From Maylandia zebra (taxonomy: Eukaryota; Chordata; Actinopteri; Cichliformes; Cichlidae): a stretch of DNA of 64,000 bases. A program made the position numbers and the translations under genes. The notes under the pieces are model-generated. The model saw only the letters and a program-made list of their open reading frames with translations, did no database searches and had not been told where the DNA came from. The DNA is taken from assembly GCF_041146795.1 (NCBI RefSeq), contig NC_135168.1:11919131-11983130 (forward strand), written 5' to 3'. This document shows positions 2,070 to 43,619 of this stretch, piece by piece. Each line of letters begins with the position of its first letter. The first letter of the stretch is position 1.

Positions 2070-2321
2070 TGATAGGTTTGTAGCTTGAACCCATCCGCTG
2101 GAACGTTGAAGACAATATAATTACACTGCAAAGCAAGACACAAGTAGGCAAGCTTCTTCATGTTTCTCGTGCACGGGAGAGAACCGGACAGGCACCGTTC
2201 CTTCACTTGACCCCAGTTGCTCTCGTCCGTTCTCCCGTACCACTGTTCTTTTATTGAGGTTACATGAATATGCATAGGTTCATTAACATATGACGTCTAC
2301 ATACACACAAAGAGTACCTTG

Positions 2322-2390
<69 letters not shown>

Positions 2391-2726
2391 ACTGCTGATC
2401 AAAGGGTCAAACATCCTTGGTCAGGAAGAGGGTAGCCTCCCCCTCACCCTAGATGGTTCATCCTAGATAACACGGTGAGGAAGTCCTGCAGTTCATCTAA
2501 ACAAAGAGCACTTAGACTAGAACAGACGCAACTACGTTAATCCTACCATAAAACAATAAGACACGGTATGACCTCTCATGCTCCCAAAGTGCTGTCTAAT
2601 ACACACAAAGTTTGCAGACTATCAAGGATCAAAACCTCTACCAATCTACAACTAATTACAAAACTCTAAGCATATATAAGTAAATATTTCTAAGCATAAA
2701 TGACAATCAACAATACAAATCTAACA
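2070..2726 (-). repeat. ERV-B 3' LTR, complete
   Basis: The 657-bp LTR has plus-strand ends TGATAGG and CTAACA, so both strands read TG...CA. On the minus strand it has a TATATA stretch (about 2672-2678) and an AATAAA poly(A) signal (2250-2255). A (GT)n tract of about 64 bp (2326-2389) lies between them. The same GT tract is the insertion point in the other LTR. Confidence 0.85.
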
Positions 2727-2740
2727 TTTCCCCCCTTTTT
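2727..2740 (-). other. ERV-B polypurine tract
   Basis: On the minus strand, A and G only (AAAAAGGGGGGAAA) abut the first base of the 3' LTR. This is the expected place and makeup of the plus-strand priming site of a retroelement, and it confirms the element's orientation. Confidence 0.75.
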
Positions 2741-8700: not shown

Positions 8701-9297
8701 AACGTCTGTCTCCCTCCAACTCACTCTTGGTTGCTTAGAAACCCATGATAACAACAACAGTCGGTGTCACAGACCACGTGTTCTGCTCCGCACACACTCA
8801 CACAACAACAACAACAAAAACGACGACGACGACAACAATGACAACAACACAAAATAGGCCTACTCCGGACTCACACCGGACCGCTCGGGACCCTGACCCA
8901 GTTGTGGGACGCTCACCCACTCGCGCGACAAAACCCAATGAAGGGACGCTCGGGACACACACCCAGGGCGATTTCAAAACCGGACACTCACCGGACGCTT
9001 GGGACCCTTGGGCGATTTAACCAAAACCTCTTTTTCGGGACACAAACCCAGTTATCACTCCACAAAGCAGCGAACTTCTCAACGCCTCACAAAATGGCGG
9101 AGACTGCACAACGACACGGTTATAGAGTCGGCCTCTTCAAACTTACTTGGCGTTGCTTAGCGTGTAATATCAGCTTCGAATCCCGCCGATCGCCATTCAT
9201 CGAGGAGAAAGATAGACCGCGAATCCACAGGAACTTCCTGGCTGACGTCAGTCTTTCAGCGTGTCCCTCCTCCCCTCAGTGAATGCGATTCCAGGGC
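2727..9297 (-). other. ERV-B interior, no gene seen
   Basis: This 6.6-kb stretch lies between the polypurine tract and the primer-binding site. No frame on the minus strand exceeds about 105 codons, and no protease, reverse transcriptase, integrase or zinc-knuckle motif was found on either strand. The part near the primer site (8870-9290) is GC-richer. On the minus strand it repeats GGGTCCCGAGCG-like words and contains an AAAATGGCGG word (9091-9100) that resembles a YY1 site. A short ACA/ACG triplet repeat lies near 8800-8840. It resembles a large non-coding LTR derivative that depends on another element's proteins. Confidence 0.55.
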
Positions 9298-9316
9298 TCC
9301 GGCTCTCGAAGGACCA
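9298..9316 (-). other. ERV-B primer-binding site, tRNA-Tyr-like
   Basis: The minus strand reads TGGTCCTTCGAG followed by AGCCGGA, starting five bases inside the 5' LTR end. The first 12 bases pair with the 3' end of eukaryotic tRNA-Tyr including CCA. The CCGGA that follows also pairs if two extra bases (AG) are allowed. This supports a tyrosine-tRNA primer with a 2-base insertion. The fish tRNA set was not searched. Confidence 0.55.
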
Positions 9317-9321
9317 ATTAA

Positions 9322-9573
9322 TGATAGGTTTGTAGCTTGAACCCATCCGCTGGAACGTTGAAGACAATATAATTACACTGCAAAGCAAGACACAAGTAGG
9401 CAAGCTTCTTCATGTTTCTCGTGCACGGGAGAGAACCGGACAGGCACCGTTCCTTCGCTTGACCCCAGTTGCTCTCGTCCGTTCTCCCGTACCACTGTTC
9501 TTTTATTGAGGTTACATGAATATGCATAAGTTCATTAACATATGACGTCTACATACACACAAAGAGTACCTTG

Positions 9574-9609
<36 letters not shown>
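9322..9609 (-). repeat. ERV-B 5' LTR, inner piece
   Basis: This piece matches 2070-2355 with two substitutions, then enters a (GT)n tract of about 34 bp and stops matching at 9610. The remainder of this LTR resumes at 28499 in the same orientation. The break therefore lies within the microsatellite. Confidence 0.88.
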
Positions 9610-9611
<2 letters not shown>

Positions 9612-9990
9612 TTTGCTTGTGTCAAAATTGGGGACTTCTATCAGCTCACACACCAGTCAATTGGGGACACCTCTCCCTTTGGGGACCAAAACCACCGTCC
9701 CCAATTAGATTTACCTCTAACAACGTTCAGCATGTTCTAAAACATATTTTAATCCGAAAATCTCACCTGACCCCAAAAGTGACATTTTTTAGATTTTTTG
9801 TGTATGTGTATGACATTGCCCCCAAAAATTTTTGCAATCTGTGTATAACTCTATGTTGCCCCTAGTGGAAGTGTGTGAAATTGCAAGAATTTCCACTGTC
9901 CCCAAAAGTGACATTTCTTGGATTTTTTTGTGTGTGTATTACCTCTCCCTAACCCTTATATTATTATAGTGTAAGATTTCTTTTAATATA
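9610..9990. repeat. GGGGAC/GTCCCC-rich edge of the inserted segment
   Basis: TTGGGGAC-type words occur near 9628, 9660 and 9677, and GTCCCCAA or GACCCCAA words occur near 9700, 9770, 9820 and 9900. The word GTCCCCAAAAGT recurs near the other edge (27990-28310). Shared words next to both edges are typical of subterminal repeats that bind a transposase or recombinase. Confidence 0.45.
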
Positions 9991-10559
9991 CTGATCTTTG
10001 TTGAAAATCTTATTCAACATTCTTTTGTATGAATGGTTTTATATAAACAAACATTTGTTCTCTTGACTAAATAATAGAAATCAGTCGACTATTTAGTAGA
10101 TTATATTTTCAAAAGGGTAAAGAAGACACCAGAAAATACAAAAGAGTCATATTTCACGTAATTATGATATAAATAGTTTTAATATTTTTTAAAGAATTAT
10201 TTGGCATGATGTGAAGCAGATGCATGAAGTAATGGAGCACTTTAGGTTCATATTTGCTTTCTGAACTGCAGCTTGACATAAATTACTCTAAATTCTTGAT
10301 ACTTGTATTGCAACATATTTAAGATGTTTCTTGAATTTCTGTTGAATGGTGCAGGGATCCAAAATTTGGTGAAACAGCTGAGCTAAATTTCAATGTTAAT
10401 ACCTTTTAGGCAGTATGTAAAATACTGCCTAAAAAGCATAAAAAGTCACAATCATATGGCATAAAACTTAATTCTCACCGAAGTCTCTTTAAGAGCTGAT
10501 CAAAAACTGTAAGACAATGGTCATTACATATGGATCATGACAGAAAAAAAATTATATCC
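9991..10559. other. AT-rich stretch, nothing identified
   Basis: No long frame, repeat end or RNA gene was recognised here. A short inverted pair, AGGCAGTATGTAAAATACTGCCT, can fold into a hairpin near 10408-10431. Confidence 0.4.
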
Positions 10560-11075
10560 TGGATACAAGCGGGAAAGATTAGCTTCTGTAGCATGGTTGA
10601 CTGGGCCTTAGAGATATGTCCAGAGCTTGACTCAAGTTAAATTCAAAGTCAGCTTTATTGTGGAGACGGCTTATGGTTGAGAAATGAACATTCAATGCAC
10701 GGGCGACAGATCTGGTTGACATTCCTGCTGTCAGCATGCCAATTGCACGCTCCCTCATTGCATCTGTGGCATTTTGCTGTGAGACAAAACTGCACATTCC
10801 AGGGTGGCCTTTTGTTGTGGGCAGTCTGAGGTACACCTGTGCACTACTGATGATGTCAGATCAGCATCCTGATGTGGCACACCTGTGAGGTGGGATGGAT
10901 TATCTCAATATAGCAGATGTGCCCACTACCACACATTTGGACTGATTTGTGACCACTGTTTGGGAGGGATGGTTATATTGTGTATCTGGGATGAATTTTA
11001 GGTCTCTACGTCCATCCCATGGGGAATGGGAGCAGTAACAAAGGTGTTGCGTTTATATTTTTGTTGAGTGTATAT
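10560..11075 (-). pseudogene. Tc1-type transposon remnant
   Basis: The minus-strand frame at 10579-10836 encodes a helix-turn-helix core (GMLTAGMSTRSVARALNVH, then STISRL), which is the N-terminal paired-like DNA-binding part of a Tc1 transposase. The catalytic part is absent. At the upper edge, GCGTTTATATTTTTGTTGAGTGTA resembles the terminus of a known fish Tc1 group. No matching opposite terminus was found, so the copy is truncated. Confidence 0.75.
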
Positions 11076-11429
11076 CATATAGGAGACAGTGATATTCCAG
11101 AAGTGAAAAGAAGTTTACTGGATTTACAAAAAGTGTGCAATAATTGTTTAAACAAAAATCAAGCAGGTGCATAAATTCGGGCACCACAAAGTTTAGTTGT
11201 CATGAAATCAATATACTTAGCATCCTTATTTTCCTATTATATTGTTTTATTTATTTCTCCACAAAAAGTGACCCGACTGCAAAATGACAGTTGCTCATCC
11301 ACTTTCCAGGGGTGGGGCCATCTTCTGTGACGCATTGAGAGAAGGAAGACAGGATAAAGACATGTTGTGGAAGAGAGCCAGAAATTAAAGTATGATTCAC
11401 ACACCTATTAGCACATAGTGAGTGAAGAC

Positions 11430-13020
11430 AGTGACTGAAGAAGAAATAGTCAATGCATCATTGGAATCCCCCAGCGCCCTACGTCTATTGCAGCATAACT
11501 AAGAGAGGATTCAGGGTCACCTGATCCAGCCCTAACTATATGCTTTAGCAAAAAGGAAAGTTTGAAGCCTAATCTTGAAAGTAGAGATAGTGTCTGTCTC
11601 CCAAATCCAAACTGGAAGCTGGTTCCACAGAAGAGGGGCCTGAAAACTGAAGGCTCTCCCTCCCATTCTACTTTTAAATACTCTAGGAACAACAAGTCTG
11701 CAGTGTGAGAGCAAATTGCGCTAATGGGGTGATCTAGTATTATAAGGTCATTAAGATAAGGCCTGATTAAGAACTTGTGTGAGGAGCAGGATTTTGAACT
11801 CTGGATTTAATAGGAAGTCCATGAAGGGAAGCCAAAGCAGGAGAAATCTGCTCTCTTTCTAGTCCCTGTCAGTATTCTTGCTGCAGCATTTTGGATTAGC
11901 TGAAGGCTTTTCAGGGAGTTTTTAGGACTTCCTGATAATAATGAATTACAGTCATCCAGCCTGGAAGTAATAAATGCATGAACTCGTTTTTCAGCGTCAT
12001 TCTGAGACTGTTATGAAATGGCTTTGTGCAGGCTGGAAAAGGACCCAAGGTGCAGACACTGAGGCAAAACTTGGACTCAAAACAGCTTTAATGCTAAACT
12101 CAAACGTAACATAACTGGATATATCAAAACAAACTTACCTGGGCCAACTCACAGCATGGCAAAAGGGTAGATCACAACACAGAGAAATACAGGGCTTAAA
12201 TACACAGAGGGAGCAATCAGGGAATGGGTAACAGGAGGGAAACACAGCTGGGGCAAATCAGGCCTAACAAGACAAAGGAAGCAAAACCAGACGCATTTAC
12301 ATGACACAGACTTTCAAAGTAAAACAGGAAACATAACACAGAGACGCGAACTTGACAAGGGAATACAGCTGACAGGGGAGACAGCAACTAGAGAACACAG
12401 AGATGTAAACCATAAGGCAGAACTCAAAGAAACCAAAGACTAGAAATGATAAATAATATAATAAACTCAAAACCATGGGTCAACGACCCAGGCATCCTAA
12501 CAGAGACAGGATATTTCTAATTTTAGAGATGTTGCACAAATGGAAGAAAGCAGTCTTACATATTTGTTTAATATGTGCGTTGAAGGACATGTCCTGGTCA
12601 AAAATGACTCCAAGGTTCCTCACACTGTTACTGGAGGCCAAGGTAATGCCATCCAGAGTAAGAATCTGCTTAGATACCATATTTCTAAGATTTTCAGGGC
12701 CGAGTACAATAACCTTTGTTTGATCTGAATTAAGAAGCAGAAAGTTAGCGGCCATCCAGGTCTTTATGTCTTTAAGACATTCCTGCAGTTTAACTAATTG
12801 GTGTGTGTTATCTGGCTTCATGGATAGATAAAGTTGGGTTTCATCAGCATAGCAGTGAAAATGTATGCTATGTCTTCTGATGATGCTGCCTAAGGGAAGC
12901 ATGTATAATGTAAACAGAATTGGTCCTAGCACTGAACCCCATGGAACTCCATATTTAACCTCAGTGTGTGAAGACGACTCTCCATTCACGTGAACAAATT
13001 GGAGTCTATTAGTCTATTGA
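11430..13020 (-). pseudogene. L2-type LINE fragment, minus strand
   Basis: The minus-strand frame at 12480-12989 encodes reverse-transcriptase blocks: GVPWGSVLGPILFTLY, where GVPQGS is expected, and CYADETQLYL, where YADD is expected. Both changes hit conserved positions, so the enzyme is dead. The C-terminal end of the same protein continues at 11450-11714 (RAGSGDPESSLSYAA region). The fragment is interrupted at 12009-12502 by another element. The wording of the motifs fits the L2/Maui group of fish LINEs. No ends or target duplication were found. Confidence 0.75.
12009..12502. mobile_element. 494-bp TG...CA insertion, probable solo LTR
   Basis: This block breaks the L2 reading and is flanked by GAGAC at 12004-12008 and 12503-12507. 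Its ends are TGTTATGA and ATCCTAACA, giving short TGTTA/TAACA inverted ends. TG...CA ends with a 5-bp duplication and no coding sequence fit a solo LTR. A small non-autonomous DNA element is the alternative. Confidence 0.6.
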
Positions 13021-13026
13021 CCTCCT

Positions 13027-13156
13027 GACCCAGTATTCAAGGTTCAAGGTTCTTTATTTGTCACATGCATAGTTATACAAGTATAACACACAGTGAAATG
13101 TAGCCTGACACGCTCCTCGACATGTGCAAATATTTGGGGGGGTGTAGAGGAAGAAC

Positions 13157-13199
<43 letters not shown>

Positions 13200-13812
13200 T
13201 ATACACTGGGTGAATGTGCAGTAGTAGCAGCAAGCAGGTGAATTCTGTACATTAATATGAATAGACATCTGACTATTTTACAGGATAGACAATATAAATA
13301 TATTTAAAATTAAAGGAATTTGGAATGTACATTGTGCCTTGGTTTAGAGTGTCTGGAAGAGAGTCCTGTCTCAGTCAATTATAGATGATGTGAGAGGGCG
13401 GGTGTGTGTGTTTAGGGCACGGATGGCTTGGGGATAGAAGCTCCTCTTGAGTCTCTCTGTCCTTGCCCGGATGATGCGGAACCTTCTACCAGATTGCAGA
13501 AGTTGGAACAGTTTGTTGCCAGGATGGGACGGGTCCTTCAGTATCTGCGCTGCTCTAGTCCGGCATCTCCTGGTGTAGGTGTCCTGAAGCGGGGGGAGAG
13601 CAATCCTGCAGCAGCGTTCTGCTGTACGGATCACTCTCTGGAGAGCTTTTTGGTCCTTCACACAGCTGTTCCCGAACCACGATGTCATGTTCTGTGTGAG
13701 GATGCTCTCCACAGCGCCTGTATAGAAAATCCTGAGGATCTTTGGAGAGACCCTGAACTTCCTCAGTTGTCGTAGGTGATACAGGCGCTGCCTAGCCTTT
13801 TTGGTCTGGACC
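13027..13812 (-). pseudogene. LINE C-terminal fragment, minus strand
   Basis: The minus-strand frame at 13371-13712 encodes the region after the reverse transcriptase of a fish non-LTR element (WFGNSCVKDQKALQRVIRTA, then SLFYPQAIRALN-like text as KRSFYPQAIRALN). Its 3' untranslated end at 13027-13130 contains a widely repeated TTATTTGTCACATGCATAG word. A (TA)n run lies at about 13158-13196. Truncated and not functional. Confidence 0.65.
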
Positions 13813-14240
13813 TGAATGTATGAACCTTCCAGATGCCTCAGGTCATCTGGATCCGTTTTTTTATCAGTTCCCAGAGTCAGAACCAGACACAGAGAAGCTG
13901 CATTCAGCTTTTATGCTCCATATATCTGGAACAAACTCCCAGAAAGCCTCAGATCAGCTGAAACACTCAGTTTATTTAAATCCAGGTTGAAGACTCACCT
14001 ATTCTCAGCTGCATTTGAATAAAGCACCAAATCCACACTTTTAAGCTTAAATTTCAAAACTTATATTTTAACTACTGATTTTATCTAGTGTTCTGATTTT
14101 ATCTACTGTTTTTTAACCAATTTTAAATCATGCTGTTTTTGTTTTTTAATTTCTCTTTAAAGCACTTTGAATCACCTTGTTGTTTAATTGTACTATATAA
14201 ATAAACTTGCCTTCCCTATTGTTGCTGTATAAATAACATT
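13813..14240 (+). pseudogene. LINE 3' end, plus strand
   Basis: The frame at 13816-14022 encodes the last part of an L2-type LINE protein (FYAPYIWNKLPESLRSAETL, then FKSRLKTHLFSAAFE). The untranslated tail ends at ACTATATAAATAAACTTGCC, a common 3' signature of these fish LINEs. It is 5'-truncated and lies head to head with the minus-strand fragment before it. Confidence 0.65.
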
Positions 14241-15779
14241 GAATTGAATCAATCAAATCCACAAATCAAATCAATCATATGCAACTGGAAATCTGCAATT
14301 TCAACAAAGATCAGTATATCAATAGAAATCATTACCATCCAATATCTCCTAACATATTCTGAAATCTTTTTTCCTTGATCACAAATACTTGAGTCAAGAT
14401 GAATATGTGGCTCTTTATATCTGTATTGATAAAAAGAGCCACTATAATGCTAATCTATGTTAAGATTACAAGGATGCACACTTACAAGTCCTCTCTTTCA
14501 AATCCTTCTGTGCTGCCATTTTAAGTATAAAGACTGCCGCTTCCTGATAGCACATCTCTGAAGAGTCTTCTTACAGCAGTTGTGCCAGCAAGTGAAATAT
14601 AAAATAAAAAAATAAGAATTGTTCTTTCTTTAACAACACTAATTTACTCATATGTTCCCATACATATCTGTTTTAATCTGTCATTTAATCACAGGAGAAG
14701 CCAATGTAAATTGTAGAGAGTCGTCTCTTCTGCCATGATCTGATAGAGTAGCAGCATTAGAGCCAGGGATTAAAAAAGTTCAACATGCATAAAGGTACCT
14801 GGTACTGGGGACAAAAAGGAGTTAGATCCCGTTCAATCGTCTGCAAGACAAGCTCACTAATATTAAGTCCTGGCATACATGGTATCCATAGAGACCTGTG
14901 AATCTCAGCTAAACGCTCATATTATCCATTTCTACCATTTCTACAACCACCAAACACAAACACAAAAGCAGTTACACCATTTCATGAAATGTCAGTAAAC
15001 AAACACAGTGGAGCCTCATCAGCATGGAGCCTCAGCTAACCAATAAAACAATACATGGTTTTGAAAAGAAAGCTCTTACAGATTCCAGAACTGCAAGCTT
15101 CGTCACACTCTGACCAAAAATCAACGAACCAGCCGCAAAATCAGACCACAATATTTTTACGATCAATAATCAGTAACGTTATAATCGGACTTTGCTTGTT
15201 GTTTCCAATGTTTAAACATCTATATGGGACTACAGAATGTTTCCTTCTCCCACAATGCCTTGGAGATGTTTACTATTTTTAAAAAATATATAATTTTCTG
15301 CCCAGTTACAGACATTTGATTGGACCAGGGCGAGGTCACGCATTTTTCTTTGGCCTTGCAACTTCTGATTGGTGGGACTGACGTGAACATGGCCATATTA
15401 CTGTGATTTTATTAGCTCAAACAATTAAAAAGAGATGTCAATCAACACAAATCGGACAATAGAAGCCGAAGTTACAGCCCCTCTGAATTTAGAGGGAAAC
15501 CTTTTTAGGTATGTAAATAAAGTTAAATCATTTCTGTTCAATACCTAAGAAATTTCTACTCACAAAAGGTAACAAAATGTGCCAAATACCTGGCTTTCTA
15601 TTCCTTTAAAGTGCTGTAATTTTTCACTGTTTTACTTCAGAAGTATTCATCTTTGCACAGATAATGTTAATACGTTGATTACTGTCTTGATGCATGCTCA
15701 AACATCCAGGTAAGTAATTCTTGATTCTATGGCTTACTGTTTATATGAACAGGGCGTACATTTAAGACCAATTTTCTGT
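14241..15779. other. Unassigned intergenic DNA in the inserted segment
   Basis: No convincing gene was found. Two CCAAT-box words in reverse (GATTGG near 15320 and 15368) lie in a short GC-richer patch at 15300-15400, but no transcript can be attached to it. Confidence 0.4.
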
Positions 15780-16330
15780 ATGATCAACATGGCCATCTCA
15801 AATTTTCTGGCTTCGATGCTCAACCCGTTGGTAGGCAGCTCTGAACACATCCAGAACAACTTGTCGAGAAAGTGAGAGATGCCATTATGGAGGCAGATGA
15901 AACAATGGTCTTGTACAATGTTACACCTCTTACTTCACTTGGGTTCCAGTCACTGAAGAATAGGTAGTTCATAACTTGTACATGGAAGAAGTGGAAAAGA
16001 GATCTTTGTTATCCTATCCTGGAACACCACCAAGTCATTGGTTCAGGTATGTGGATGACACCTAGCTGAAAATCAAATCTCAGGATGTACCACAAGTAAT
16101 GGATCACATTAACTCAGTGGATTAACACATCAAATTCACCAGGGAGGATATGAGTGATAAAATGTTTCTCCCATTGAAAATGCTACGTCCAGAAGAACTT
16201 AATCAACCTTTTGGGATTTACTTATCTGGATGATCGAGCATGCATCAAGACATGCAAATAGCAGTTTTTCCCATAAAAAAAAGTAACCAATCTACTGCAT
16301 TGACCTGTATGCACATGTTCAAAGGTGAAC
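15780..16330 (+). pseudogene. Penelope-like element, reverse-transcriptase remnant
   Basis: Around 15900-16090 the plus strand reads like the core of a Penelope-type reverse transcriptase. TCTTGTACAATGTTACACCT stands for the LYNVT block before the palm. GTPPSHWFRYVDDT (about 16021-16062) holds the YVDD catalytic motif, followed at once by a stop. Stops and frame changes throughout show that it is dead. No termini were recognised. Confidence 0.65.
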
Positions 16331-16659
16331 TCTTTTGATATCATTGTACACAGCATTTTTTGGAGTGATTTGTTCTCCACATCACCCTCAAAAACACTAT
16401 GCAAAAAGAAAAGTTTGTACATTAAGACACTATGGAGGGGGCTGTCTTACACCATAAGGTAGTGGTAGACTTTATTTAATTGTAGGAAAAATGAATGGAG
16501 AAGTCTACCTGGACAGTTGTTCAAAAGAATCTGAAGAAAAGACAAGTGTGGATTTTCAGGCAAGACAATAATTCCAATCACAGAGGATAGAAAACTTTCA
16601 ATTGGATTGAGAGAAATAAACCAATTATGAGCCCTCTGGTAACCTGATTTGTTTTGTAT

Positions 16660-17095
16660 TCGCAAAGCGAGAGCTGTGTTTGCATTCTTGACACAAAGCT
16701 GAAGTTGTTCCCAGAGAAGGTTAAACTCTGCCTGGGCTGACCTTTGTCACTGATTCTGTTGGTGGTTTTCATGGATTAAATGGTGTCTGGTTTGTGAACC
16801 TTGGGGTCTCATCTTTGGCAAATGACATGGTACTTCAGGCTTCTTAAGGCCATGACCTTCAGTGTGTACTAGAGTGGTTTGCAGCTGAGTGTGAAGCAGC
16901 TGTGATTAGAGTTAGCTCCTCTAGGTCTATGGTACTGTGCAGAGCTCTGTCATCTGAGGGGTGCTTGAAAGAGAGACACTGCTCCACCACATCAAAATGA
17001 CCAGCATGCCTACTGGGTGCCTCCCTGAGCATATTCCACTGACTGGGATCTCTCTGGGGAAGATCTAGAGCTTGTTGGAGAGACTAAGATAAAGT
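16660..17095 (+). pseudogene. RTE-type LINE remnant
   Basis: This stretch reads as a heavily mutated reverse transcriptase of the RTE/Rex3 group. It has the region before the catalytic aspartates (GGTGTCTGGTTTGTGAACCT) and the block after them (GAGTGGTTTGCAGCTGAGTG and what follows). Stops occur in all frames. It is a short internal piece with no ends. Confidence 0.55.
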
Positions 17096-17559
17096 GTTTA
17101 TTACCTAATTTCAGTCTTTACATATTTTAGACTGTTTTTAAACATAGAAAATAGTGTGAAATAAAATCCAGCAAAACAAAACAAAAATTATAATACTAGA
17201 ACATTTAAAAGGTAAAAGTGATACTTAAATTAACAGTGGAATAGTAAGGCAGCTCGTATTTTTCTCATTTGACAATTTTATTCACTGTGTACAAAACCCC
17301 AAACATTAGTTCCTCTATACTTTAAAGCAAGGAAACTGAGAAATTTCATTTAGAAATTGATTTAATTTTTGCAGATTAATATATTGTTTTTTTTAAGTTT
17401 TCATAAGATAAACAGTGATTAAAATAATAATTAATTAAATTAATAATTACAATAATACTGAACCGACTGATTGAACATCTTTAAGTGCATAATCATAATC
17501 TTGCCATTAGGCTTTGCAAAAAACGTTGGTTTCTCAGATTTTTTTTTTAGATATGTGGA

Positions 17560-17721
17560 TGGGGCAGGGCCTGCCGGTAGGCGGGCGGGAGGCGCGCGAA
17601 AGGGAGAGGCGCGAAGGAGAGGCGCGAAAGAAGAGGCGGGTGGGGGAGGGTCACAATAGCTTTGGATCGCAGTCATGGAGGTAACCATCTGAGAGCAGCA
17701 GCGCATGGAGCAGCTTTAAAG
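17560..17721 (+). promoter_or_regulatory. GC-rich promoter and first exon of the SET/recombinase gene
   Basis: A CpG-dense patch with GGCGGG boxes and a repeated GAGAGGCGCGAA word stands out in AT-rich surroundings. It is followed by a good splice donor, TTTAAAG|GTATGA, at 17721/17722. The next acceptor is at 18400, just before the ATG at 18425. This patch is therefore read as promoter plus 5' untranslated exon. A four-codon upstream frame (ATG at about 17705) lies in the exon. No TATA box is seen, as in many broadly expressed genes. Confidence 0.55.
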
Positions 17722-18046
17722 GTATGAAAAGTAGCTTAAGACATTTAGTTTGTTATTGCCATGCCTTTAGGTTTCTGCTGAAAAGGAAATTACACGACAA
17801 AAAGAAATGTCAGTATTTTCTGTCTGAATGTAAGAAAGTTATTTCAAGATGAATGTTGATATTGGTTAGCTAGCTAGGTGTACCCTTGATAAAACTCAAA
17901 TGAGCTAACATTGAAATCAGAGTACGTACTAAAATGTACGGGGGAATGATAACAAGACAATTTTCTCTAGATCGCTGATTTTTGCTGTCTTGTGAACAGC
18001 ATTCCCGTGGTGACATTTATTTGTTAGCTGTTTTCGAGGTGGCCTC

Positions 18047-18104
18047 GACACCAGCCTGAGTTCTTTTTTTTTTTTTTTTTTTTTCTTGACACCAGCCTGA
18101 GTTC
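18047..18104 (+). repeat. 17-bp direct repeat flanking a poly(T) run
   Basis: GACACCAGCCTGAGTTC occurs at 18047-18063 and 18088-18104 with only a poly(T) run and CTT between. This is what a tiny poly(A)-primed insertion with target-site duplication would look like on the opposite strand. It lies in intron 1 of the SET/recombinase gene. Confidence 0.5.
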
Positions 18105-18424
18105 GAGTCCTTTGCCCAGTGTCTTCCCCCCTCTTTTTCTGCCCCGCTTTCCTGACATTCTTTACTGAGTCAATCGAATAAAACAGAAAAAAGCCAAGAA
18201 AAAGTACAAATGTTAAATTTCAGTGTAATCTTTAATGTAATCATGAGAGTTGATAGTGTGCTTTAGTAATTAACAAATATTTTAAATAATTTATCAAATA
18301 TTTATATTTTATTATAAGCATTTAAGAAAAGGCATACTGTATTTTAATTTGGAGTTGGTGAACACAGGGAATAATTAGGTATTTAAATCTCTTTTTACAG
18401 AAAAGAAATCTTGCATTTGATATT

Positions 18425-21400
18425 ATGATGGAAACATCAGGTAGAAGAAGAAAAAGAGTTAATCCTCAACACGATGCAGAACACTATATTAAACTGAAAA
18501 CTGACAAGACTGGTCTAACAGAGCAATTCATCAGCCCATGCAAAGGTATAGTGGTGTCATTTGTGCATTTTGATAATTACAGCACGCATAAACAGTAACA
18601 CTTCGCTCCTGTATGCAAATTAGACATTCAGTACTGATAACCTTGCTCATGTCATTTGCATTTATCAAGCGTTTATGTTATAGTTTTTTAATAGGCTGTG
18701 TAAAGAAGAGTAACTTTATTCATAAGTTTTAAAATGTCTTACAATTGGTGGAAACATTTTTTTTTAAACTAGAGCAATATTTTCTTCTTTTAAAGGTCGT
18801 GGTGTAATTGCCTCGCAGTTTTTCAAACAGGGGGAATTTGTTCTTGAGTACCGTGGAGAACTTTGCAAAGCAGATCCTTATCTTGAAAAAAACAAGTTCA
18901 ATGATACGGTGGAAGTATTCTTATTTGATTTCAAATGGAAAGGAACCTCTTGGTGGTAAGACAATATTTCATGTTACAGTGTATTTTGGATCTATGCTAT
19001 ACTTAATACACTACTACAAATATCTATTATTTATGTAACATGCCACACAGTATGTTGATTTACTCCACTGTTGATACTTTTTTTTCTTCAAGCATTGATG
19101 CTTCTGTTGAAGACAAGTCATTAGGAAGGCTTGTGAATGATGACCACCGAAGGCCTAGCTGTAAGATGAAAACAGTTGAAGTTGAAGGAAGGCCACATCT
19201 TTGCCTGTTTGCCTTACGTGACATTGACCCAGGAGAAGAAATAACTTATGACTACGGGAAAGCCGACTGGCCTTGGCGCAAGATGGTAAACTATTGCATT
19301 GCACTATTGCTGCACATGATGTCAAATAAGTCTAACTATATTTGATTTTGGCCCAAAGATATCACATAAACTACTGTTAAAACAGCTTAGATTTTAAACC
19401 TCTTCAAGTTTTTCTTAAACCTCTTCAGAACATGGTGTTGTTATTTTTGAGTTGAAATACAAAGTATGTTTTGTATTTCGATAAGATAATAGTATTTAAT
19501 ATCAGTGAATATACTGGTATGGTGGGGTGTGGTCTGTGGGGCCGCTGCATTGGCTCATCACGCTGTCCTTGCATTAAAGCCTGTACTGGGTCCTTACTGA
19601 CTTGTTGTTGTCATTTTGTACAGGACACCACTGAAGAGCTGCTTCTGTGTTTGTTTATTGAGACGACAACCAGAAATAAAAATGTTGAGGGGTGGGGAGT
19701 AGGGCTCTAGCCACCTTGTCGGTCTTTTTATTTCTGGTTGTTGTCTCAACACACACAGCTTTTCAGGAGTGTCCTGCACATAATATGTTCTCATCACTCT
19801 GGACATGAGCCTTGTGTTTGCTCTGAGCAGTGAGGGGGAGGGGCAGTCGTTACACTCCCAGTGGCACATCAACAGAGCTGGAGGGAGAGAGAGAGAGATC
19901 CTTCTCCTTCTTATTGGATTCAAGTGCACATTTGAGTTCTGTGAGAACAGTTTGCAGCCTTGTCTTACTAGTCATTTCTACACAGACGCCATGAAATGCA
20001 CAGATGCGGGCACGCACAACACGAAGCACATGGTCAATTTAGGGGAGGCTTAGGTTAAAGCAGAGTGTATTTGTGTTAGAAACGTCCCCAAAAGTTATAA
20101 GTGTGAGGCCTAATGATGACTGTAGTTGGTGATGTTTTTGTAGTTGTAAGTGAAGTCATGTCTCTGTTTTTAGGATAAGTCTACTCTAGAGATCAGCAAC
20201 CAAACCGGTGATCTTGAACACTGCATTCAGGTAAGTGTTATGTTCTCATCAGTATCTAATGAGTATCTAATGAGTGGCCTTAGTTCAGTTTGCCATTTAC
20301 TGTCCTCACTTAGGTTAAAGCAGAGTGTATTTGATCCCCTCTATGGTGTGGTGTATAGTAAAGGAGATTCACATGTGTACTACCTCCTGTTACCCTTGTA
20401 CCATTTTGGGCCCCATTGACTTCCATTATAATCACATATTTTCCATATACTGTAATCCTGACATGTGATAAGGCTTTTCTCGTGGATACCTAATGGATCT
20501 AAGCCTCTGCCTTCAAAATAAAGGAAAAATAGGTTTTGGATCAAATGAGCACAATATTAGGCACAGCACCACCATAGACACTCAGTGGTTTTGAATGCAG
20601 GACATGGTTATCTTACCTTGCAAAATACATGGTAACAAAACGGCTAATCACCATAAAATAGTCTTGATGTAGTGGAACTGATATAAGAGAGTGGTGTGAA
20701 TGTGATTGAGAATATATATACATATATATATACATATACTGTGTGTGTGTCGGTGGCAAACAAAACGGCCCGTAGAGCCGCCTCCTTGAAGTGAACAACT
20801 GCAGCCTGCCCCGTTTTTTTTTCCTTTCTCTAAATCTCTCTAAATGTTTTTTTTTTTTGGCTTCACTCTGGACATGAGGCTTGTGTTTGCTCTGAGCAGT
20901 GAGGGGGAGGGGCAGTCGTTACACTCCCAGTGGCACATCAACAGAGCTGGAGGGAGAGAGAGAGAGATCCTTCTTATTGGATTCAAGTGCACATTTGAGT
21001 TCTGTGAGAATAGTTTGCAGCCTTGTCTTACTAGTCATTTCTACACAGACGCCATGAAATGCACAGACGCGGGCACGCACAACACGAAGCACACGGTCAA
21101 TTTAGGGGAGGCTTAGGTTAAAGCAGAGTGTATTTGTGTTAGAAACGTCCCCAAAAGTTATAGGTGTGAGGCCTAATGATGACTGTAGTTGGTGATGTTT
21201 TTGTTGTTGTTAGTATGGGTGGGTTTTAATAATCGATTCATTGATTAAAATCGATTCAGGTTTGGATAATGTGATATCGATTCATTAAAATCCGGAATCG
21301 ATTTTTCTTTTTTTATATAAATGTATTTTGCCCAAAATCCTTCTCCTTCTTATTGGATTCAAGTGCACATTTGAGTTCTGTGAGAACAGTTTGCAGCCTT

Positions 21401-22148
21401 GTCTTACTAGTCATTTCTACACAGACGCCATGAAATGCACAGACGCGGGCACGCACAACACGAAGCACATGGTCAATTTAGGGGAGGCTTAGGTTAAAGC
21501 AGAGTGTATTTGTGTTAGAAACGTCCCCAAAAGTTACAAGTGTGAGACCTAATGATGACTGTTGTTGGTGATGTTTTTGTAGTTGTAAGTGAAGTCATGT
21601 CTCTGTTTTCAGGATAAGTCTACTCTAGAGATCAGCAACCAAACCGGTGATCTTGAACACTGCATTCAGGTAAGTGTTATGTTCTCATCGGTATCTAATG
21701 AGTATCTAATGAGTGGCCTTAGTTCAGTTTGGCATTTACTGTCCTCACTTAGGTTAAAGCAGAGTGTATTTGATCCCCTCTATGGTGTGGTGTATAGTAA
21801 AGGAGATTCACATGTGTACTACCTCCTGTTACCCTTGTACCATTTTGGGCCCCATTGACTTCCATTATAATCACATATTTTCCATATACTGTAATCCTGA
21901 CATGTGATAAGGCTTTTCTCGTGGATACCTAATGGATCTAAGCCTCTGCCTTCAAAATAAAGGAAAAATAGGTTTTGGATCAAATGAGCACAATATTAGG
22001 CACAGCACCACCATAGACACTCAGTGGTTTTGAATGCAGGACATGGTTATCTTACCTTGCAAAATACATGGTAACAAAACGGCTAATCACCATAAAATAG
22101 TCTTGATGTAGTGGAACTGATATAAGAGAGTGGTGTGAATGTGATTGA

Positions 22149-22213
<65 letters not shown>

Positions 22214-25200
22214 CATACACTGTGTGTGTGTCGGTGGCAAACAAAACGGCCCGTAGAGCCGCCTCCTTGAAGTGAACAACGGCAGCCTGCCCCGTTTTTT
22301 TTTTCCTTTCTCTAAATCTCTCTAAATGTTTTTTTTTTTTGGCTTCACTCTGGACATGAGGCTTGTGTTTGCTCTGAGCAGTGAGGGGGAGGGGCAGTCG
22401 TTACACTCCCAGTGGCACATCAACAGAGCTGGAGGGAGAGAGAGAGAGATCCTTCTTATTGGATTCAAGTGCACATTTGAGTTCTGTGAGAATAGTTTGC
22501 AGCCTTGTCTTACTAGTCATTTCTACACAGACGCCATGAAATGCACAGACGCGGGCACGCACAACACGAAGCACATGGTCAATTTAGGGGAGGCTTAGGT
22601 TAAAGCAGAGTGTATTTGTGTTAGAAACGTCCCCAAAAGTTACAAGTGTGAGACCTAATGATGACTGTAGTTGGTGATGTTTTTGTAGTTGTAAGTGAAG
22701 TCATGTCTCTGTTTTTAGGATAAGTCTACTCTAGAGATCAGCAACCAAACCGGTGATCTTGAACACTGCATTCAGGTAAGTGTTATGTTCTCATCAGTAT
22801 CTAATGAGTGGCCTTAGTTCAGTTTGCCATTTACTGTCCTCACTTAGGTTAAAGCAGAGTGTATTTGTGTTAGAACCGTCCCCAAAAGTTATAAGTGTGA
22901 GGCCTAATGATGACCGTAGTTGGTGATGTTTTTGTTGTTGTTAGTATGGGTGGGTTTTAATAATCGATTCATTGATTAAAATCGATTCAGGTTTGGATAA
23001 TGTGATATCGATTCATTAAAATCCGGAATCGATTTTTTTTTTTTTTATATAAATGTATTTTGCCCAAAATCCTTCTCCTTCTTATTGGATTCAAGTGCAC
23101 ATTTGAGTTCTGTGAGAATAGTTTGCAGCCTTGTCTTACTAGTCATTTCTACACAGACGCCATGAAATGCACAGACGCGGGCACGCACAACACGAAGCAC
23201 ATGGTCAATTTAGGGGAGGCTTAGGTTAAAGCAGAGTGTATTTGTGTTAGAAACGTCCCCAAAAGTTATAAGTGTGAGGCCTAATAATAATAACAGTTGA
23301 TGATATTTGTCAAAGCTGAGCCCAGGGCAAACTAAGCTAAATTATTGGTTTTAGCTAATAGCTACAATAAGCATAACAGTTACTGTTAGGCTGTCATTTG
23401 TTCGCATGATGCTTTTTCTTATACACGCAATACATTTATTACCCAACTAATTCAACAAAGTTCTGTCCATACAAGTACTGTGTAATTGAAAACACAAAGA
23501 TTGTTTATTATTGTTAAATATGTCTGCTATATAATGAATTTCACAAGTACACTGCTGTGCAGTTTAGGTTTGTTTTAATATTAATTTTCATATCCCTCTT
23601 TAAAAATACCCTATGCAACCTTGTTTTCTAAATGACATATTATTTTTTTTCAAATGTATATCCTCAAACCAGTGATTCCAGTGTTGAATTTTATGCTATA
23701 ACTAGTATTACTTTTACAGTTTAATATTTCCTTATTTGGTTTTATAGATATCAAAAATATGTTGTAATAATATGATACTTTTAGAAACTCAGTTTTTGTT
23801 TTTTGTCCATCCTTTAAGGCTGCAGTTCCTCCTATAGTTGCCACAACATCATTACTTCAACCAGCATCTGATAATTGCTTCGTTGAATACTCAAAAAAGA
23901 GGTCCTCAAGACAAAAACAGGTGGAAAATGTTTAATATACATGTTTTATTTATCTTTAAATAGCTCTAACTTTTAATCTGTCACAAAAAATACTTCTATC
24001 ATGTCTTAAATCTTAAAGAGATGTTATTTTTTCCCCAAGGTCTCGACATATACAGAAACATCTTCTGATGAATCCGATCACACAGACTATAGTGATGCTA
24101 ATTATGTTCCAGACACTGAAGGAAGTTCCTCTCAGCTAGATGAAGATGAACCTCTTTATCCAACTGCACAGAAGTCTCTGCCTTCTCTGCAATACCCCGA
24201 TTTATCTCCACAAAAACTAGATAATTATTCAGAAATTTTAAATAAAGGCAATGGTGCCACAACTTTTAAGAAGAGGATCTCAAAAACTCCAAGAAAGAGA
24301 AAGCTCTCGTCCCACAGTGCAACAAATAGTAATGAAAGTACACCGAAGAAAAGCAGAACTCAACAGATTTTGGACTCGATCAAAGTGTTACCACCTTCAA
24401 AGTCTGGAAGTCGCCGTGTATATGATAAGAGAAACTATTGTTTGTTTTGTCTCCAGCCTACATCAAAAATTGCACGACACCTGGAGACTGTACATAAAAA
24501 TAAGGAAGAGGTTGCTCGTGCATTTCAATATCCCAAAAATTCAAGAGAGAGGCGCAATAGGTTGAACATCCTTAGAAGACGTGGAAATTTTGCCCATAAT
24601 GCCAGTGTTGTGAAGAGGGGGGCTGGTGAGCTACAGGCCTGCTATAGACCAAAGAAATCCACAGAGGGCATTGATTACATTCATTGTTATCACTGCCAGG
24701 GACTCTATTCTAAGAAAACACTGTGGAAGCACATGAGAATATGCCCAGCAAAGAAAGAAAGTGAAGAAGACTCCCAGAGTGGGAAGCAGCGGGTTCGATC
24801 CAAATGTGCACTGAAAACTGCTGTTGTTCGTGACATTGGAGAGGGCTTGAAAACTGTGATTTCCTGCATGAAATATGACGAGGTAACTCAATTAATCCAA
24901 AATGACCAACTTCTTCTTCAGTTTGGACAGCACCTTTATGATCTAAATGGTTCAAGAAAGAACAGACATGACTACATAAGGCAAAGGCTTAGGGAACTTG
25001 GGCGACTGCTGCTTATAGCTCAGAAGAATACCCCCATTCAAAAGGCAGAGGAACTGATTTATCCTGCAAACTTCAACCATTTGATATCTGCAGTGAAAGA
25101 GGTGGCTGGGTACGATCCTGAAAGAAATACGTTCCAGAAACCTACCTTAGCTCTAAAAATTGGCAACAATCTGGGAATTATCTGTGAGCTTGTAGAGACT

Positions 25201-27351
25201 GACAATTTGTCCTCAGAAGACGGAGACTCAAGCCTTGTGCAATTTGCCAGAGAATTTAAGGCTATCAAAAATTTTAGATGGAAGGGACTGATCACCAGAG
25301 GTGCAACAACAACCATGAAGGAGTCTAAGTGGAATGCACCACAGATTTTACCTTTAACAGCTGATGTCAAATGCTTGGATCGCCATATGGAGACTGTTAA
25401 AAGCGGTGCTGAAAGAATGCTGAGGTTGACTCCAACTCCATACAGCTATGCAATGCTTGCCAAAGTGACACTAGCTCAAGTGATCATTTTTAACAGAAGA
25501 AGAGAAGGAGAGGTATCAAGAATGGAGGTGTCCACCTTTAAAGACAGAAAAAAGTCAGAAATCAATATGGACATGGCTGCTTGTCTGACCTCACTTGAGA
25601 AAAAAATGTGTGATTTCTTCACCAGAGTAGAAATCCGTGGAAAACGAGGGAGAGGAGTTCCTATTCTCCTAAAACCATCAATGGTCTCTGCAATGGAGCT
25701 CCTTGTGGAAACTCGTGAATCTTGTGGCGTCCCCAAAGAGAACATTTACATGTTTGCTAGACCAGGAGCTTTATCTGCCTATCGAGGAAGAGACTGTATC
25801 CAAATGTTGGCAAAGGAGAGTGGAGCAAAACACCCTGAAATCTTAACATCAACAAGGCTCCGAAAACATATCGCAACAATGTCGCAGGTGCTTAATCTTC
25901 AAGAAAATGAAGCAGATCAACTAGCAGACTTTCTGGGTCATGACATACGTGTGCACAGGCAGTATTACCGCTTGCCTCAAGGAACACTTCAGCTTGCTAA
26001 GATGAGCAAATTACTTTTGGCACTGGAGAACGGAACTGTTTCACATTATAAAGGCCAAACACTTGATGATATTGAAATTGACCCCGAAGGTAAGAGTGTA
26101 AATTTTATTAGGATGCTCTAAAATATAATAATTGATTTTTTTTTAATTATTAAATGCTCTGGAAACCTTTAGAAAAAGTTGATCTGGAAAATTCAGATTA
26201 CTCAAGCGATGAGAGTGAGCCTCTTCAATCGGCTCTGGAGGCAATAAAAACACCAGAGAATGAGACAACGGATCAGGATGGAGACAGAGGGCCATGGACT
26301 TCTTCATCTCCAGGGACGTCTTCATCTCCAAGGACTTCTTTCAGTCCTCCCTTGAAAAAGGGTACTGACCAATTTGTTTTGGCATAAACATAAACTTTAT
26401 ACATTGGCACAGAAAAATAAATATGGTTCAGTGAATTAATGAAGTGAAAAGGTGATAAATAAATGACGGTCACGATCATCAACTCGGCGAACAAATAATT
26501 CAGAATTCATCCAATATGCACAATTTTGCTTTTACTTTGAACAGGCTTGTGCCTACCTTTAAATCTTTTTAGACCGGTCTGTTGTCCGCCTCATATCAGA
26601 TCGTACCTTAAGGTCCAAATTAGACCTCTCAGCCGCAAAAGAATCCAGGTCATGGCACCAATTATTAAATTCATTTCTTTGTATTCTTTTAACAGCGAAG
26701 AAAGACACGGCTCAAAGTGGTCTAACTCAAAAAATGATCTTTAATTTTACATTTTCCGGAAAATGGAGACTGAGCACACAGACATCAGCTCAAGTCTGAA
26801 GCAGCAGCAGGCAGTCTGGTTATTTATATACTTCCTCTAGACGTCACGCACACTTTTAAGTTTCGATCAAACACTCTACTTAGTTTCACTTTCTGCCTGC
26901 AGCTCATATTCTTTGCAAAAGCATGCAGTTTCCTATCAGCCTGCGACCTAGTTTACACTCAACGCTGGCCATCTCTTATACGTAAAAGAATATAATCAGC
27001 AAATAAGCACTAATAATATATATATATTAAATACATGACATTATTCATTGAGTAGAGGAGGAAAACATTTGATATTGAAAAAGTTTTAAGCAGTGTATTG
27101 ATGTCTGTTTTCTTTTCTTCAAAGGCAACCGAAGTAACGCCAAATGTAAGTGGGAAGATCATGAGGTACGTGCAGTTGAAAAACACATGATGCGTTTCAT
27201 CAACACATGCAAGTTGCCTCAGAAGCTGGACTGCACTCAATGCATCAATGCAGAACCCTATGCACTGAAAGACAGAAACTGGACTGGGGTAAAAAATTAT
27301 GTTAGAAATCGCATTACTGCCTTAAAAAGAAAAGCTTGTGCAAAGGACTGA
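18425..27351 (+). CDS. SET-domain and tyrosine-recombinase fusion gene (KMT5A-like/Crypton-like), spliced
   Basis: Coding exons read from consensus splice sites are 18425-18545, 18796-18955, 19093-19285, a 57-nt exon present three times (20174-20230, 21613-21669, 22719-22775), 23819-23920, 24040-26089, 26173-26361 and 27125-27351. Phases match at every junction and there is no internal stop. The product is about 1032 residues with one copy of the 57-nt exon, or about 1070 with all three. Domains in order are a KMT5A-type SET domain, an acidic Ser-rich linker, a C2H2 and a C2HC finger, a tyrosine recombinase, and a Cys-containing C-terminal module. I recall related gene models, usually named KMT5A-like or uncharacterised, as multicopy in fish genomes; this was not checked. 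A role as a mobile-element recombinase that also marks or reads chromatin is inference. Confidence 0.8.
18796..19285 (+). other. SET domain exons of the fusion gene
   Basis: Exons 3 and 4 encode GRGVIASQFFKQGEFVLEYR, then CIDASVEDKSLGRLVNDD and DIDPGEEITYDYG. These are the start, core and catalytic-tyrosine segments of a KMT5A (H4K20 monomethyltransferase)-type SET domain. The usual Asn-His pair that lines the cofactor pocket is Asn-Asp here, so catalytic activity is uncertain. The EEITYDYG tyrosines are kept. Both exons are in frame across a split Cys codon (18954-18955 with 19093). Confidence 0.8.
20174..20230 (+). other. 57-nt exon, copy 1
   Basis: This copy encodes DKSTLEISNQTGDLEHCIQ, preceded by TTTTTAG and followed by GTAAGT. 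It is 19 codons in phase 0 on both sides, so it can be skipped or repeated without a frameshift. Confidence 0.7.
21613..21669 (+). other. 57-nt exon, copy 2
   Basis: Identical coding sequence to copy 1, with acceptor TTTTCAG (a T-to-C change that strengthens the site) and donor GTAAGT. Confidence 0.7.
22719..22775 (+). other. 57-nt exon, copy 3
   Basis: Identical coding sequence to copies 1 and 2, with acceptor TTTTTAG and donor GTAAGT. The next exon downstream is at 23819. Confidence 0.7.
24040..26089 (+). other. Zinc-finger and tyrosine-recombinase exon of the fusion gene
   Basis: This 2050-nt exon encodes, after a Ser/Asp/Glu-rich stretch and a basic TPRKRKLSS patch, a C2H2 finger (CLFC...H...H, about 24439-24495) and a C2HC finger (CYHC...H...C, about 24685-24744). 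The recombinase follows. Its Arg I box is RREGEV (25498-25515), its second box is STRLRKHIAT with the second Arg at about 25861-25863, its third box is LGHDIRVHR, and the nucleophile is the second Tyr of QYYR (about 25966-25968). The Arg-Arg-His-Tyr set is complete. The His usually three residues before the second Arg is Thr, as is tolerated in some eukaryotic families. The lineage closest in plan is Crypton. Confidence 0.75.
26560..27000 (-). mobile_element. Possible LTR-element fragment in the last-but-one intron
   Basis: On the minus strand this block reads like an LTR followed by TGGTGCCATGACC, a primer-site-like start, a few bases past an AAT end (about 26650-26665). CCGGAAAATG and a TTAAAG word lie inside. 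The block does not resemble the neighbouring intron. No second LTR or target duplication was found. Confidence 0.3.
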
Positions 27352-27715
27352 GGGCTGTTTGTGATTTCAGTGAGTTAAAATTTCCTGTTTCTCTGGTAAA
27401 ATGGTTCTGAAGATGTTTTGAAGATGTTGCACTCCAAAAATTTCAGGTTCAGTAAGCAGGTGTAAGTTTGTTTCCTAAAACCTTTTGTCATTCTGAGAGG
27501 AAAAAAACAAATCTTTTCAAGTTGACATTTTTTTCTTAACATGGTTTTCATTGTGTCCACTTCGCACTGTATGAGATGTATTTGGAATCAAAGTTTTTTA
27601 CATTTGCAGGTAGAAGCACTTAATGAATTGTGCAGATATTTTGTTGTTTCTTTGTTGCTGCAAGTTCCTGTGTATACATGAAGTGCATGTAAAGTGCTAA
27701 AAACAACACGGTAGA

Positions 27716-27721
27716 AATAAA
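27716..27721 (+). terminator. Poly(A) signal of the SET/recombinase gene
   Basis: AATAAA lies 365 bases after the TGA at 27349-27351, in an AT-rich 3' untranslated stretch with no other gene before it. Confidence 0.55.
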
Positions 27722-27989
27722 AGAAGCAGAATATTTAAATGTTTCTGTGGCACAATAAGTTGTGATTTCTTTCATAATAAGTAATGACCTGACTTTGAAG
27801 TTCTGGCAAATCCATTGGATTTTGTCAAGTTAGCAGACCTAATTGCAATGAATATTGTTAGGTTGGGTAGAAAAAGATGGCTTTTAACATTGTGACACTG
27901 AGCAGCAGCAGCATCCTAAAACATTTCTAGATGGTTAAATCATAACATTACCTTGTACTTACTTTGATGAAGTAATATCCCCAAAACTG

Positions 27990-28310
27990 AAGTTATGTGT
28001 GTATTGCTGAAGACCCCAAATGGAAGTAACGACCCCAAAAGTGGCATAACATAATTTGTGTATGTGTGTATTGCTGAAGACCCCAAATGGAAGTATGGTC
28101 CCCAAAACTGACATAAAATAACTTGTGTATGTGTGTATTGCTGAAGACCCCAAATGGAAGTAAGGTCCCCAAAAGTAGCATAAAATAGTTTGTGTATGTG
28201 TGTGTCGCTGAAGACCCCAAATGGAAGTAAGGTCCCCAAAAGTAGCATAAAATAGTTTGTTTATCTGTGTATCGCTGAAGACCCCAAAGAGGACATTAAA
28301 CATTCCCAGT
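27990..28310. repeat. Minisatellite of about 60-bp units with GACCCCAAATGG
   Basis: About five units follow one another, each with GCTGAAGACCCCAAATGGAA, then a CCCCAAAA word and a TTTGTGTATGTGTG-like end. The array lies near the right edge of the inserted segment and shares CCCCAAAA words with the left edge. Translations of it on the minus strand are low-complexity and not genes. Confidence 0.8.
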
Positions 28311-28497
28311 CCCCAATGTGAAGGTAAAAATACTGTCTGGACAAATGTTGCTTAAAATGAAAATCTCAAGTGATTTTTTATTTCTGTGGTCTTGGAGGAG
28401 TAAAACTGAGTTGCCAGCTTGCTTCTAAACCATACAGAAAGTGGTGTCCCCAAAGGGTGGGAGTTAAGATATGCGACCCCAAACGGGACTTAAGCGA

Positions 28498-28498
<1 letters not shown>

Positions 28499-28557
<59 letters not shown>

Positions 28558-28893
28558 ACTGCTGATCAAAGGGTCAAACATCCTTGGTCAGGAAGAGGGT
28601 AGCCTCCCCCTCACCCTAGATGGTTCATCCTAGATAACACGGTGAGGAAGTCCTGCAGTTCATCTAAACAAAGAGCACTTAGACTAGAACAGACGCAACT
28701 ACGTTAATCCTACCATAAAACAATAAGACACGGTATGACCTCTCATGCTCCCAAAGTGCTGTCTAATACACACAAAGTTTGCAGACTATCAAGGATCAAA
28801 ACCTCTACCAATCTACAACTAATTACAAAACTCTAAGCATATATAAGTAAATATTTCTAAGCATAAATGACAATCAACAATACAAATCTAACA
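28499..28893 (-). repeat. ERV-B 5' LTR, outer piece
   Basis: After a (GT)n tract of about 58 bp, 28557-28893 matches 2390-2726 without a difference that I can see. It ends CTAACA and is followed by TAGAC. Together with 9322-9609 it makes one full LTR. Confidence 0.88.
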
Positions 28894-28898
28894 TAGAC
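28894..28898. repeat. Target-site duplication TAGAC, right copy
   Basis: This is the partner of 2065-2069. The sequence that follows (CTAGAAGGCGGAGTCGACC) resumes the interrupted ERV-A leader. Confidence 0.85.
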
Positions 28899-28939: not shown

Positions 28940-28953
28940 TTGTGTTTCAGAGA

Positions 28954-41775: not shown

Positions 41776-41945
41776 AACCCTTCATATATTTCTAAGAAAA
41801 CACATTCACATGTAACATCTGAAAGAAATCTTTATTTGATGTTTAAAACATACATATAGCATATCAATCAAGCAAGGAATATTCATTTTATAAGTTTATT
41901 CTCATTACATACTTAAACATTCTAAAAGAAACACACACACATATA

Positions 41946-43547: not shown

Positions 43548-43551
43548 TACA

Positions 43552-43619
<68 letters not shown>

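Follow-up and report, generated by a model that had tools for sequence, protein, structure and literature searches.

How did a segment of 18.9 kb that carries a predicted tyrosine-recombinase gene come to lie within the GT repeat of a young long terminal repeat (LTR) element? The question is raised by a 64,000-nucleotide stretch of the Maylandia zebra genome (NC_135168.1, positions 11,919,131 to 11,983,130 of the forward strand; hereafter the window). We consider it highly probable that positions 9610 to 28500 of the window are an 18.9-kb copy of a mobile element, likely moved into a GT repeat by its own product, a predicted SET-zinc finger-tyrosine recombinase.

The LTR element that received this segment occupies positions 2070-28893 on the minus strand and is flanked by a target site duplication, TAGAC, at 2065-2069 and 28894-28898 (read in the printed flanks). 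Its intact 3' LTR (2070-2726, minus strand) contains (GT)33 at 2324-2389 and represents the target in its unsplit form, as the initial annotation had stated; an empty allele of the site itself was not observed. The 5' LTR, also on the minus strand, is split: part 1 (9322-9609) consists of 9322-9575 followed by (GT)17 at 9576-9609, part 2 (28501-28893) begins with (TG)28 at 28501-28556, and between them lies the inserted transposon copy of 18,891 bp (9610-28500, plus strand), whose edges are common to other copies in the genome. The claim that this LTR is cut within its (GT)n tract, with both halves left in order, was thus upheld. Comparison of the split and the intact LTRs, with the GT tract excluded, showed 2 mismatches in 254 bases for part 1 and none in 338 bases for part 2 (2/592 in total). 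Because TAGAC flanks the whole LTR element on either side, the two 5' LTR halves belong to one insertion, and the 18,891-base segment arrived after that insertion. Assuming 3.5e-9 mutations per site per generation, as in cichlids, the 2/592 differences correspond to an LTR age of about 0.5 million generations (range 0.06-1.7 million). On the minus strand of the element, a polypurine tract adjoins position 2727 and a primer-binding-like TGG start adjoins position 9321 (by eye), which identifies the split copy as the 5' LTR. This part of the earlier designation, the 5' LTR of an endogenous retrovirus (ERV), stands, whereas "ERV" is a label only, since a scan of the interior (2727-9321) found no open reading frame (ORF) of at least 150 amino acids. 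With near-identical LTRs and such an interior, the host LTR element is likely non-autonomous. GT/AC tracts of at least 10 repeats were scarce, 16 in 257,732 bases (the window plus loci L021-L042), a number that includes several of the element ends under discussion.

Copies of the two edges were sought in the genome to which the window belongs (63 contigs, 962 Mb). The left 401 bases matched at nine places, in full at the window (on contig C2) and on C21, C11 and C18 (97-98%), and partially at the other five. The right 1140 bases matched at eight places, and the final base was reached at the window, on C11, on C18 and at two sites on C22, while the match of the C14 copy stopped 4 bases short. 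On C11, C18 and C22 the two edges stand in a single orientation and bound 11.9, 8.4 and about 2.4 kb, respectively. None of the recombinase matches of the genome fell within these three shorter copies, which therefore look non-autonomous.

The check that the initial annotation had proposed, whether other copies share both edges and adjoin (GT)n, gave a positive answer: a pattern search found the GT junction at both edges of the window, C11 and C18 copies, at the left edge on C21 and at the right edge on C14. The (GT)7 plus left edge pattern was found with no mismatch at the window, C11 and C21 and with 2 mismatches at C18. At up to 3 mismatches it gave 195 matches in total against 243 in the reversed control, so that weaker left-edge matches away from the known edges are uninformative. 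The right edge plus (TG)n pattern gave 14 matches, exact at the window and C11 and with 1, 2 and 3 mismatches at C18, C14 and C22:48889808, respectively; the nine others all had 3 mismatches, which is the level of the control (8 matches), and the right edge at C22:5362635 was absent from the 14. The edges of the segment, 9610 and 28500, behave as transposon ends.

Each end is accompanied by a distinctive subterminal region on the plus strand. The left (5') end (9610-9990) contains 7 CCCCAA/TTGGGG sites between 9628 and 9900, the first of them 18 bases in, and the right (3') end (27979-28500) contains 67-bp tandem repeats and 13 CCCCAA sites, the last of which stops 18 bases before the edge, and terminates in ..GCGAGTA. 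These two regions hold 20 of the 43 CCCCAA/TTGGGG sites of the window, and the motifs are candidate binding sites. A terminal inverted repeat was considered as proof of the ends and set aside, the inverted similarity being only modest, and the genomic copies were used instead. A 32-nt inverted pair is present at 9975/14299.

The gene within the segment was assembled from tblastn matches with relatives and from splice signals. It comprises six coding exons between 18425 and 27351, all on the plus strand, separated by five GT-AG introns and open over 979 residues when spliced, in agreement with the earlier description of a complete-looking recombinase gene. Its predicted protein consists, in order, of a KMT5A-like SET domain, zinc fingers, a tyrosine-recombinase fold and a conserved C-terminal domain. 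The SET domain begins in exon 1 (18425-18545) and continues through exon 2 (18796-18955) and exon 3 (19093-19285), the last bearing the motifs NDDH..PSC and EEITYDYG. The main coding exon (24040-26089) encodes the zinc fingers and the recombinase with residues R378, K425, R498, H524 and Y533 (numbered as in P0001), and is followed by an exon for an acidic/serine-rich linker (26173-26361) and by the last exon (27125-27351), with the conserved C-terminal domain and the stop codon. The large intron contains repeated units (19794-23368, plus strand), three of which carry an exon-like piece of 57 bases together with splice signals: mini-exon copy 1 (DKSTLEISNQTGDLEHCIQ, 20174-20230), copy 2 (21613-21669) and copy 3 (22719-22775). 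In the relative P0122, units of 20 residues recur between the SET domain and the zinc fingers; copy 1 was related to them, and together these observations make longer isoforms of the window gene likely; the mini-exon copy number could vary between alleles. A further likely exon (23831-23920, plus strand, start uncertain) matches P0122 just ahead of the zinc-finger exon. P0122 and P0005 have a coiled-coil stretch, for which no counterpart was found in the window copy.

Comparison of the SET part with known families gave a match to PF00856, and its nearest relative in the PDB was KMT5A (E 4.7e-22, residues 36-150). The SET core and the catalytic motifs are present, EEITYDYG among them in the alignment with KMT5A, and we predict a KMT5A-like histone methyltransferase. 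It resembles the KMT5A/SETD8 histone H4K20 methyltransferases in that KMT5A is its closest PDB relative, and differs from them in being fused to zinc fingers and a recombinase and in reading NDD at the NHS motif. For the recombinase part, the fold and active site of a tyrosine recombinase are predicted. The catalytic R, K, R, H and Y follow the order of the superfamily, with a spacing of 9 from H to Y, and the catalytic fold of its members is predicted as well. Among 107 aligned recombinases these residues are conserved in 105, 105, 104, 99 and 99 sequences, respectively, while the histidine position of HxxR is occupied by threonine in 101. A PDB sequence search with the recombinase gave nothing convincing, Foldseek alone gave no match at E ≤0.001 (best 5.4e-3), and 62 relatives together matched 18 Pfam families at E 0.1, none of them a recombinase, DUF3504 or captain model (DUF3435, the Starship captain).

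The SET domain had been read at first as cargo of the segment. A search with the SET part returned 178 proteins, and 114 of the 120 listed contain, within one predicted protein, a recombinase match as well (E 1e-5); the listed proteins are mostly from fish, many are isoforms of shared loci, and some match the recombinase in part only. Since SET and recombinase are spliced into one frame in the window and 114 of these 120 relatives match both, the SET domain is not cargo and that reading was discarded: it forms the N-terminus of the recombinase protein, in a fusion that is widespread in fish. The recombinase search found 311 proteins among 7997 scored candidates, and the organism-named proteins among the 120 listed were from fish and two frogs. 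Encoded copies were 96-99.7% alike across nine named loci of the loach Misgurnus and 95.5-99.9% alike across four loci of the shad Alosa. No relative was confirmed in viral contigs or in bacterial and archaeal genome contigs. Some proteins that match the SET-recombinase family (P0018, P0172, P0206 and P0241) bear public names such as UvrABC system protein B, KMT5A and PAK 1.

Nor was a cargo gene recognised elsewhere in the insert; its recognised content is the SET-recombinase gene and degraded passenger fragments. One passenger is a transposase-type helix-turn-helix (HTH) fragment, Tc1-like by eye (10579-10860, minus strand), which matches five HTH families, of which only HTH_23 reaches the curated cut-off. 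The other is a fragment of a reverse transcriptase, of the non-LTR type by eye (12480-13013, minus strand; RVT_1, 7.3e-14), and no reverse transcriptase-RNase H gene belonging to the insert itself was found. Rfam and tRNA searches gave no matches.

The same genome holds 76 recombinase matches (75 of 104 candidates scored), 37 of them with a stop-free frame of 645-762 codons. After the window copy, the next-best full-length match was 46% identical, and there was one closer, broken relative on C3. Grouping of the match rows gave at least six other recombinase families, several with near-identical copies. Flanking sequence from four copies of family A and three each of families C and D aligned in register over long distances at 98-99.96%, while the surroundings differed. 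SET exons were found upstream in every one of the three D copies and in one A copy, that on C16. Three of the A copies have mini-exon arrays, and one A copy has at least 11 mini-exons at a spacing of about 749 bp. At the 3' end of all four A and all three D copies there is a GT tract, where the similarity stops. The terminus is ..GTATG(TG)n in five of these seven copies, while the two exceptions both lie on C16, an A copy with ..ACACG(TG)n and a D copy with ..GTATATG(TG)n. One copy of family C ends in ..GTGTATG(TG)n, at a boundary that is not checkable, and its two other fetched copies run into N and are not counted. Family D elements contain a copia-type gag-pol, common to two copies at different sites (L041:1527-3801 and L037:2-712), so that passengers can travel along. 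The recombinase match at C2:11672135-11673418 lies in an open frame of 2222 codons, unlike the other matches.

These families provide the best of the rival explanations, namely that the segment is a transposon of this kind that was moved in trans by the recombinase of another family, its own protein being inactive or otherwise used. The near-identical copies of several families are consistent with this, as are the GT-repeat target that all ends read so far have in common and the existence of window-family copies that lack a recombinase match. However, inside the GTATG motif the families differ in their terminal sequences, which suggests enzyme-specific ends, and the window's frame is fully open; we therefore regard movement by a foreign enzyme as unlikely. 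Less probable again is that break repair, or ectopic recombination between GT tracts, copied a genomic segment with a domesticated SET-recombinase gene into the LTR, with no recombinase involved. GT repeats are prone to recombination and the segment contains old passenger fragments, but one pair of edges, each adjoined by GT, encloses copies of three different lengths (18.9, 11.9 and 8.4 kb) at three sites, and two other families end likewise. The least credible explanation is an unrelated contig joined into the GT tract of the LTR during assembly, GT repeats being classic misjoin points, since a single LTR would have to be misjoined twice, each time at an edge that other contigs share, and the outer target duplication is intact.

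Under the preferred reading, an element moved by its own enzyme, the predicted recombinase would excise the element as a circle, which would then recombine into GT-repeat DNA. At the circle junction a TG core may pair with the alternating GT core of the target; with this core common to circle and target, the mechanism would leave no visible duplication, and none is visible here. End recognition could be provided by the zinc fingers together with the CCCCAA-rich subterminal repeats, and the shorter copies on C11, C18 and C22 would have been moved in trans. One possibility for the SET domain is that it acts on the chromatin of the target or of the element. A wider proposal, which we offer tentatively and hold to be possible rather than probable, is that fish and frogs harbor a lineage of giant tyrosine-recombinase transposons, still active in recent times, for which GT microsatellites serve as ready-made attachment sites and whose KMT5A-like SET domain, fused to the recombinase, writes a chromatin mark while choosing or silencing the landing site. 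If true, such a protein would be an integrase with a built-in epigenetic writer.

Fish DIRS and Ngaro retrotransposons also integrate by a tyrosine recombinase and without target duplication, but the insert differs from them in having only degraded reverse transcriptase fragments and no RNase H-linked gene of its own. Our search of published papers found none on a SET-recombinase transposon, and the closest system that it turned up was CryptonV, a lineage of DNA transposons with a tyrosine recombinase that has been described from cnidarians. Some CryptonV families are said in PMC8869645, which refers to Kapitonov and Jurka (2012, Repbase Reports), to insert specifically in microsatellites. The window element is likewise a DNA transposon with a tyrosine recombinase and a microsatellite insertion: in three of its copies both edges adjoin GT, as do the 3' ends of all seven A and D copies. 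It differs from CryptonV, compared by description only, in its host, and neither a SET fusion nor a size of 19 kb is mentioned in the available part of that description. For Cryptons more generally, the sections available of Kojima and Jurka (2011, PMC3212892) report non-autonomous derivatives, a proposed excision as circles and animal elements without terminal repeats. Like CryptonA, CryptonI, CryptonF and CryptonS (PMC3212892), the window element relies on a tyrosine recombinase and lacks a reverse transcriptase gene of its own; it is a DNA transposon with repeated edges, and the insert holds only an RVT_1 fragment. Unlike the Crypton R-H-R-Y tetrad, its family has threonine at the HxxR histidine, and it has a SET domain (not mentioned in those sections), a split gene and a length of 18.9 kb. 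Judged by the published descriptions, the element operates in the manner of a Crypton, and its choice of target comes nearest to that of CryptonV. It is also similar to the fungal Starship giant transposons (PMC12134995), which are large, are moved by a tyrosine recombinase and carry other DNA, and is distinguished from them by its animal host, by the lack of recognised cargo genes and by the absence of a captain model from the Pfam families of its 62 relatives.

Most described eukaryotic transposons insert by DDE enzymes or by reverse transcription. A tyrosine-recombinase transposon of vertebrates whose ends are defined and whose GT target is both simple and abundant would be a natural system for the integration of large cargo, and it raises the question of why a histone methyltransferase should be attached to a transposon enzyme. 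Many fish gene models named "uncharacterized" or "KMT5A" probably belong to such elements.

Directly outside the host LTR element there is an open frame of 265 codons (28942-29739), gag-like by eye and without a Pfam match above the cut-off, and the host LTR element seems to be nested in an older LTR element. Further along the window, at 41906-43587, there are two inverted arms of 239 nt each, 92% complementary and 1204 nt apart.

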